Source: a virus. From it: a stretch of DNA of 31,854 nucleotides. Each line of letters opens with the position of its first letter. The stretch's first letter is position 1. The stretch lies in IMG/VR virus record IMGVR_UViG_3300032294_001333, positions 1 through 31,854 of that record; one strand, given 5' to 3'. Both the position numbers and the translations under genes were made by a program. Of this stretch, positions 3,722 through 4,874 are shown piece by piece. The notes beneath the pieces were generated by a model, which had not been told where the DNA came from, ran no database searches, and saw nothing but the letters and a program-made list of their open reading frames with translations.

Positions 3722-3864
3722 GCAACACGCCAAGGACGGATGACCAGGAAAGATGGATATTGAGCGAAGGCGGACGGTATTCGGTTGTCGGATCACACTT
3801 CGCCCGCGACCTGGAGCGCGAGCTCGCCGCCGCCAACGAGCGCATCCGGAGGCTGGAGCCGTGA
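3718..3864 (+). CDS. Small hypothetical protein, 48 aa
   Basis: No family is recognised. The C-terminal half (DLERELAAANERIRRLE) is a strong coiled-coil helix. The gene is coupled on both sides: ATG overlaps the previous stop. Its TGA at 3862-3864 is used twice, overlapping the GTG of the methyltransferase (3861) and directly abutting an ATG at 3865 that opens the nested reading frame. Two SD-like runs, GGAGG (3848-3852) and GGAG (3855-3858), lie inside its last codons. Confidence 0.55.
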   Translation: MSNTPRTDDQERWILSEGGRYSVVGSHFARDLERELAAANERIRRLEP

Positions 3865-4874
3865 ATGAGCTGGCATTATTTGCAGGGGCAGGAGGCGGCA
3901 TCTTGGGAGGGCACCTGCTTGGATGGCGCACCGTCTGCGCTGTCGAGTTTGATGCCTACGCCCGCAACGTCCTACTCGCCCGCCAACGTGACGGATGGCT
4001 CCCGCGATTCCCAATCTGGGACGACGTGCGAACATTCGACGGCAAGCCGTGGCGAGGCCGCGTTGACGTCGTCTCCGGAGGCTTCCCATGTCAGGACATT
4101 TCCGCCGCAGGAAAGGGCGCTGGAATCAAAGGGAAGCGATCCGGGCTGTGGCGGGAAATGGCGAGAATCATCGGCGAGGTACGACCTGACTACGTGTGGG
4201 TGGAAAACTCACCGATGCTTGTGGGTCGAGGACTTGCTGTGGTCCTCGGTGACCTTGCCGAAATGGGGTATGATGCGCGCTGGGGTATTGTGGGAGCGGA
4301 CGATGCCTGTGCTCCTCATAGGCGGAAACGGATCTGGATTCTGGCCGACTCCAAGCGTGTGCGGGAACTACAACCGCAAAGGAGCATCGGAGACGAGCGG
4401 GGACGGGCTTGCGACCGCTGTGAAGCTGTGGCCGACTCCAACCGCCTTCGATTCCACGACATGCACGAAGGGGGAGCAGGCGGTTCACAAGGACAAGAAT
4501 CGGCGAGCCATGGGCGGGAACGGTGGTCCGTCGCGCAACCTTCGGGAGGCAGTCATGCTGCCAACCCCGTGTGCAACCGAGGCGAGGCAAGGATTTCAGG
4601 ACCGGAGCCGAGGCAAGAGGGGCAGTCAGGAGAGCCTTTCGACGGTCATTCAGGGAGCCCGGGCACGGGAGGCTGGTGGCAGTCTGAACCCCAGTTGGGT
4701 CGAGTGGCTGATGGGTTGGCCGCTGGGCTGGACGTCCACGGAACCCATGCCGGAATCGACGTGGGACGCGTGGCAACAGGCATTCCGAAGCGAGCCCATC
4801 GCCTCCGGTGCATCGGGAACGGACAGGTCCCGGCCGCAATGACCCTCGCTTGGAACGAACTCACCAAACCATGA
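3861..4874 (+). CDS. C5-cytosine DNA methyltransferase
   Basis: This 337-aa enzyme transfers a methyl group from S-adenosylmethionine to cytosine C5 in DNA. Motifs in order: I, LALFAGAGGG (residues 4-13, cofactor binding); IV, GGFPCQDIS with catalytic Cys77; VI, WVENS with Glu115; VIII, HRRKRIW (153-159); a long variable target-recognition region (about 163-300); and IX/X, RLRCIGNGQVP near the C-terminus. The GTG start has GGAGG 8 nt upstream and overlaps the previous stop. No cognate restriction enzyme is nearby, so it most likely protects phage DNA as an orphan methyltransferase. The variable region has weaker codon bias in this frame than the overlapping frame does (hand count about 59% versus 73% GC3 over about 55 codons from 4340). 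Confidence 0.92.
   Translation: MNELALFAGAGGGILGGHLLGWRTVCAVEFDAYARNVLLARQRDGWLPRFPIWDDVRTFDGKPWRGRVDVVSGGFPCQDISAAGKGAGIKGKRSGLWREMARIIGEVRPDYVWVENSPMLVGRGLAVVLGDLAEMGYDARWGIVGADDACAPHRRKRIWILADSKRVRELQPQRSIGDERGRACDRCEAVADSNRLRFHDMHEGGAGGSQGQESASHGRERWSVAQPSGGSHAANPVCNRGEARISGPEPRQEGQSGEPFDGHSGSPGTGGWWQSEPQLGRVADGLAAGLDVHGTHAGIDVGRVATGIPKRAHRLRCIGNGQVPAAMTLAWNELTKP
3865..4842 (+). CDS. Nested alternate-frame ORF inside the methyltransferase gene
   Basis: A 325-codon open frame lies in the +1 register wholly inside the methyltransferase. It starts at ATG with GGAG 6 nt upstream, immediately after the stop of the 3718 gene. Unlike the Arg/Pro-rich shadows elsewhere, it reads like a protein: SSVTLPKWGMMRAG, then FWPTPSVCG (W160), LWPTPTAFD (W189), NLREAV-LPTP, and LNPSWVEWLMGWPLGWTS (E280). 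I recall the WPTP...EWLMGWP pattern in many phage and prophage proteins found at methyltransferase loci. It lacks the PCQ and ENV motifs, so it is not itself a complete methyltransferase. It may be a genuine overprinted gene, a specificity partner, or a by-product of methyltransferase conservation. Confidence 0.5.
   Translation: MSWHYLQGQEAASWEGTCLDGAPSALSSLMPTPATSYSPANVTDGSRDSQSGTTCEHSTASRGEAALTSSPEASHVRTFPPQERALESKGSDPGCGGKWRESSARYDLTTCGWKTHRCLWVEDLLWSSVTLPKWGMMRAGVLWERTMPVLLIGGNGSGFWPTPSVCGNYNRKGASETSGDGLATAVKLWPTPTAFDSTTCTKGEQAVHKDKNRRAMGGNGGPSRNLREAVMLPTPCATEARQGFQDRSRGKRGSQESLSTVIQGARAREAGGSLNPSWVEWLMGWPLGWTSTEPMPESTWDAWQQAFRSEPIASGASGTDRSRPQ

Follow-up and report, generated by a model that had tools for sequence, protein, structure and literature searches.

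A +1 frame overprinted on a phage cytosine methyltransferase gene is under selection and probably encodes the recognition subunit of a split enzyme

Does the methyltransferase gene of this virus encode a single protein, or does the same stretch of DNA specify a second one in another frame? The question arises from the virus record IMGVR_UViG_3300032294_001333, whose 31,854 bases (about 66% GC) were analysed over their whole length and are called the window below. The methyltransferase gene lies in the company of genes for an exonuclease, a primosomal protein, a helicase loader and a single-strand binding protein, after which come those for head and tail proteins. A preliminary description had placed two overlapping frames at this locus, and its coordinates were correct. 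The first frame, which we call M, is the catalytic chain of a C5-cytosine DNA methyltransferase as judged by PF00145 and PHROG_363; it occupies positions 3861–4874 of the plus strand, starts with GTG and encodes 337 amino acids, with an additional in-frame ATG at 3753. The second, which we call W, occupies positions 3865–4842 of the same strand in the +1 frame, so that its ATG lies 4 nt past the M start, and encodes 325 amino acids. Both starts have their own ribosome-binding signals exactly where these had been claimed, namely a Shine-Dalgarno sequence GGAGG (3848–3852, plus strand) 8 nt upstream of the M GTG and a Shine-Dalgarno-like GGAG (3855–3858, plus strand) 6 nt upstream of the W ATG. 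The GC content of third codon positions, earlier counted by hand, comes close to the values computed over positions 4341–4505, which are 60% for M and 75% for W. Finally, the words WPTP, LPTP and EWLMGW that had been picked out in W are indeed there and are part of a real protein family, PHROG_1008, to which W is matched with E=7.8e-22 and which is matched by all 66 W proteins.

Openness of the +1 frame and selection on it

We chose the best 80 viral loci for M alone, so W was not selected for, and in 79 of them W proved to be open along 85% or more of M; this holds also for those loci that have only 46–52% GC. As a null, the synonymous codons of M were permuted 300 times per locus, keeping the M protein and its codon usage, and under this treatment W acquired a mean of 5.9 stops in the related loci. 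At 55 of the 80 M-selected loci, none of the 300 permutations matched the observed open length of W. Canonical chromosomal C5-methyltransferases behave otherwise, as their +1 frame was longer than in shuffles in 0 of 25. A composition artefact as the cause of the open W frame was thus rejected on the basis of both the shuffles and the chromosomal controls.

The search was also made from the side of W. Scanning viral contigs gave at least 599 matches to the W pattern, at least 598 of them encoding a relative, and in species genomes 82 stretches fit the pattern and likewise code for a relative. Of the best 80 W matches, almost all keep both frames open for about 900 nt, with some 8 to 27 stops in the third. 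No W that had escaped from its partner was found among 154 W-selected loci; at almost all of them the -1 frame holds the catalytic motifs. Besides phages, the pair is seen in contigs of bacteria and archaea from many phyla, and in 14 control genomes PF00145 was present in 10 and PHROG_1008 in none. One nested pair is carried by Leptospira interrogans plasmid p2 (L335), where the annotation reads DNA cytosine methyltransferase only.

If homologous loci carried stops in the +1 frame while keeping M intact, the idea of an overprinted gene would have been refuted, as the preliminary description had pointed out. Among the M-selected homologues such a broken W was not seen, the one exception among the 80 being L150, whose two frames are joined through a pentanucleotide repeat. 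There, nine copies of CCAGA just past motif VIII (L150:2494-2538) join the catalytic domain in frame with the PTP/motif IX domain of W; this repeat is possibly a phase-variable switch or a slip of assembly. At another locus (L181:3001-3961) a small indel swaps both frames within the catalytic region, and it is either a frameshift mutation or a sequencing error. We rejected both as counterexamples to a conserved pair, since the frames switch there via an indel or a repeat. A different kind of change occurs at L196 and L198, where one in-frame stop just past motif VIII shortens M, the downstream motif X stretch is open and W is intact.

The start codon of W is conserved as well. ATG or GTG is found at +4 from the M start in 172 of 180 distinct loci. 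Residue 2 of M is usually Asn, and its codon is then AAT in 157 of 157 cases, although Asn codons elsewhere in the same proteins are AAC 1051 times versus AAT 599 times (AAT 36%). Where residue 2 is His, Asp or Arg, the codons are mostly CAT, GAT and CGT, which again yield ATG or GTG for W. The fixation of AAT points to ribosomes starting W at this position, as it would otherwise be hard to explain.

A similar signature extends through the catalytic region, where the fourfold-degenerate third bases of conserved M residues are frozen exactly beneath conserved W residues (Gly as GGG in 99% against 23% expected, Ala as GCC in 100% against 32%, Val as GTG in 98% against 23%) and are near expectation under unconserved ones. 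An example in the window is the W segment TLPKWGM over LAEMGYD of M (4252–4272, plus strand), with its Ala GCC at 100% and Gly GGG at 99%. Altogether, 25 of 62 fourfold sites of M reach z >5, the highest being 14.9, with the caveat that some of the excess identity across the catalytic region is owed to common descent and that the fourfold excess vanishes for the most distant well-sampled pairs. Among 36 chromosomal C5-methyltransferases no fourfold site exceeded z of 5, the maximum being 3.9. Synonymous constraint beyond the needs of M, which had been suggested as a check, is strong.

The balance between the frames changes along the gene. In the stretch between motifs VIII and IX, the identity of W is 0.302 as compared to 0.145 in a null with permuted M codons, every pair lying above its null, whereas that of M is 0.171 as compared to 0.155 with permuted W codons. 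Here W is clearly selected, and M behaves much like a passenger linker with no detectable selection. Around motif IX both frames are selected. Selection thus acts on each frame beyond the demands of the other, and the gene that had been put forward as possibly overprinted is real and selected, as its openness, its kept start and the frozen fourfold sites attest.

Division of motifs between the two chains

M matches PF00145 with E=9.8e-30, the match being limited to residues 5–165, and PHROG_363 with E=3.7e-63. Its translation and our alignment A2 place, all on the plus strand, motif I (FAGAGGG) at 3879–3899, motif IV (FPCQ) with the catalytic cysteine at 4083–4094, motif VI (ENS) at 4203–4211 and motif VIII (APHRRKR) at 4311–4331. 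Motifs I, IV (PC), VI (EN) and VIII (RxR) are near-invariant among 58 relatives, and in A2 the F-P-C of motif IV is invariant and its Q almost so. Motif X (GNGQVP), located by translation and by the survey described below, is at 4815–4832 of the plus strand, which in the window is in the M frame. M had been credited with every C5-methyltransferase motif, and this stands for motifs I–VIII and X but fails for motif IX; a motif-IX-like block lies in W. By its signature motifs and motif X, M is a PF00145 C5-methyltransferase, while both motif IX and a recognisable target-recognition domain (TRD) are absent from the chain, as seen in the translation and in the end of the PF00145 match at residue 165.

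What, then, does W encode? Searches of W against Pfam and NCBIfam gave no match, and a PDB profile search gave chance matches only. Two regions of W can be described nevertheless. The PTP-repeat region (4339–4680, plus strand, with WPTP at 4342 and 4429 and LPTP at 4558) is a putative TRD by its homology to single-chain methyltransferases. It is followed by a motif-IX-like block, LNPSWVEWLMGWPLGW (4684–4731, plus strand), of the general form LNPxWVEWLMGWPxGW, in which L274, N275, P276, W278 and E280-G284 are invariant in our alignment A1.

The link to known enzymes is provided by actinophage proteins in which everything is in one chain. Mycobacterium phage Hamulus gp68 and Propionibacterium phage B22 gp50 have the same domain as W, with LPTP repeats, LxxxFxEWMMGxPxGW and GNGVxPQQA, but they carry it behind the catalytic domain in a single frame and a single chain. 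W aligned with 18 such single-chain actinophage methyltransferases (hhalign 98.9%, E=3.9e-17) across the PTP repeats, motif IX and motif X. An AlphaFold2 model of a single-chain enzyme (pLDDT 73, pTM 0.76) aligns end to end with M.HhaI (Z 21.1, 250 residues aligned, 3.4 A). The IX-X segment of W-type chains, taken alone, falls in register with the canonical RKLTPRE..RLQGFPD...GN (local hhalign 52%, E=1.5e-4), and the C-terminus of B22, a relative and not W itself, matches PF00145 positions 271–321 with E=0.017, which is below the cut-off. AlphaFold2 prediction of W alone from 66 sequences, which does not address its fold in a complex, gave a mean pLDDT of 57 and a pTM of 0.29, with no fold match found for this model; for this reason the TRD assignment of the window W rests on homology. 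It thus appears by homology that the C-terminal half of W corresponds to the TRD and motif IX that M is without, the identity of the block as motif IX being moderately supported. We infer that W is a target-recognition subunit; the idea that it might be a partner conferring target specificity, raised in the preliminary description, remains the best-supported role.

Another indication comes from motif X. A pattern-based survey of 235 loci found it in M only at 215, in W only at 9, in neither at 11 and in both at none. Where it is in W, M mostly ends soon past motif VIII. Mapping the X-in-W state onto a tree built from the catalytic domain takes 12 changes, and well-supported branches force at least 9 of these. 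As an essential motif is passed between the chains, M and W are most likely one enzyme.

In Streptomyces, Gordonia and Mycobacterium phages this split with X in W occurs under the labels of two ‘DNA methylases’ or ‘may be inactive’. For instance, phiBT1 gp9.1 (L002:1359-1859) is labelled ‘DNA methylase may be inactive’, and an unannotated +1 frame behind it holds PTP, IX and X. Two mycobacteriophage loci, one single-chain (Hamulus, L256) and one frame-split (L266), have almost identical catalytic domains.

A proposed split enzyme and its rivals

We consider it quite likely, judging by the sequence comparisons above, that M and W together make up one split C5-methyltransferase, as its two subunits, and that the gene for the recognition subunit is overprinted on the catalytic one. 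In this proposal, one mRNA with two overlapping frames would give two chains of a single C5-cytosine DNA methyltransferase, and the two starts, which lie close together and are each preceded by a Shine-Dalgarno sequence, would lead to the joint production of both. M would be the catalytic subunit that binds AdoMet and holds the catalytic cysteine; W would be the recognition subunit, its PTP repeats serving as the TRD and its motif-IX block holding it in place. Docking of W on M would complete the DNA cleft, and the sequence to be methylated would be set by W. The resulting methylation would probably protect the phage genome against host restriction.

A different route to the same enzyme would be a programmed +1 frameshift just past motif VIII, by which the C-terminal half of W would be fused to M and the upstream part of W would stay untranslated. 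The single-chain actinophage enzymes show exactly this order in one frame, the two frames of L150 are fused through its repeat, and the close likeness of the catalytic domains of Hamulus and L266 fits such a fusion too. We nevertheless regard it as unlikely, because the W start at +4 is conserved independently of M residue 2 and because frozen fourfold sites lie beneath conserved W residues all along the catalytic region, none of which a downstream shift would need. By-product status of the open frame, in which GC-rich codon usage and conserved M residues alone would keep it free of stops, is hardly credible: although long chance frames are common at the GC content of the window, which contains several additional long frames, the pattern persists at 46–52% GC, shuffles that keep the M protein and codon usage break W, canonical chromosomal enzymes do not have it, and the start-codon and fourfold-site data contradict it.

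One could also assume that W is a protein in its own right with a different function, for instance to inhibit host restriction or to regulate M, and that it came to be overprinted by happenstance. The N-terminal half of W, which lies over the catalytic domain, is conserved and has no assigned role, and in Firmicutes phages, methyltransferases equipped with a TRD and a motif IX of their own nevertheless bear a shorter constrained +1 frame (see below); both would suit such a protein. The idea seems quite improbable to us, as the C-terminal half of W shares homology with the TRD-IX-X portion of the single-chain enzymes, a portion absent from M, and motif X moves from one chain to the other.

If the split-enzyme proposal is true, it describes an overlap of two genes that is nearly complete, with about 975 nt used in two frames, and very widespread among tailed phages. 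It would explain why many phage ‘DNA cytosine methyltransferases’ seemingly have no target domain, and why actinophage methylases have been annotated as two genes or as ones that may be inactive. It predicts that M expressed alone will be inactive or will misread its target, and phage methylome work should therefore include W. The nested, split and fused forms of the W domain would then constitute a natural experiment on the gain and loss of overlap.

Known two-chain systems and the Firmicutes phage enzymes

Two-chain C5-methyltransferases are known. M.EcoHK31I recognises YGGCCR, and its smaller chain, of 176 amino acids, is read from an alternative frame inside the larger gene; M.AquI recognises CYCGRG and consists of alpha and beta chains. 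In M.EcoHK31I, motifs I–VIII and X are in the larger chain, in which the predicted TRD was also placed, and motif IX is in the smaller one, while in M.AquI one chain has I–VIII and the other IX–X (PMC3404938). Judged by this described partition, the window resembles M.EcoHK31I, with I–VIII and X in M and IX in W, the identity of the latter being moderately supported. It differs in that its TRD-like region is in W and the VIII–IX stretch of M is unselected, and in that W, with its 325 amino acids and its start 4 nt past that of M, spans nearly all of M, the small chain of M.EcoHK31I being shorter. The partition of M.AquI is not that of the window, whose M retains motif X and whose second chain also reaches back over the catalytic gene. 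It is found in relatives (L056, L087, L179, L218, phiBT1, Upyo and others), where M ends past motif VIII and motifs IX and X are on a second chain in another frame. Here, in contrast to both systems, the recognition chain overprints nearly the entire catalytic gene, and forms that are nested, split or fused occur side by side.

Records of the W frame already exist, namely PHROG_1008 (‘DNA methyltransferase’) and the Paenibacillus phage Diva ‘g49 internal gene’, whose annotators recorded a nested gene; these are without a motif assignment or a split-enzyme explanation, and other records annotate M alone (e.g. L003 and L005). A literature search that covered subscription journals poorly found no account of the M/W pair across phages. 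The ShiLan element, an out-of-frame gene in actinophage methylases, was considered and rejected, being an HNH homing insertion and not W (PMC11855218).

An unexpected result came from those Firmicutes phage methyltransferases whose own chain includes both a TRD and motif IX. A full-length W was found in 0 of 65 of them, and direct hhalign comparison of W with these enzymes gave nothing, although the IX-X segment compared alone did align in register. Even so, their catalytic domain is overlain by a constrained +1 stretch that runs for about 160 codons, as against 60 expected, and ends in SLSDILEENVPEKYFLS; z reaches 15.5 in this part, whereas most of the TRD region shows little of the constraint. 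The split-enzyme model alone does not explain this constraint. A tentative reading, which we hold to be possible rather than probable, is that +1 overprinting is a general and old feature of phage-type C5-methyltransferases including the Firmicutes enzymes, that the TRD duty is one outcome of it and that recognition domains hop between frames. Were this true, W-type proteins would form a broad, unrecognised class of phage proteins. In the Firmicutes loci L340-L418, the +1 frame over M codons ~46-180 reads MTSQQSQM...YSLRT...WMNWGMMxNGKCLT...SLSDILEENVPEKYFLS.
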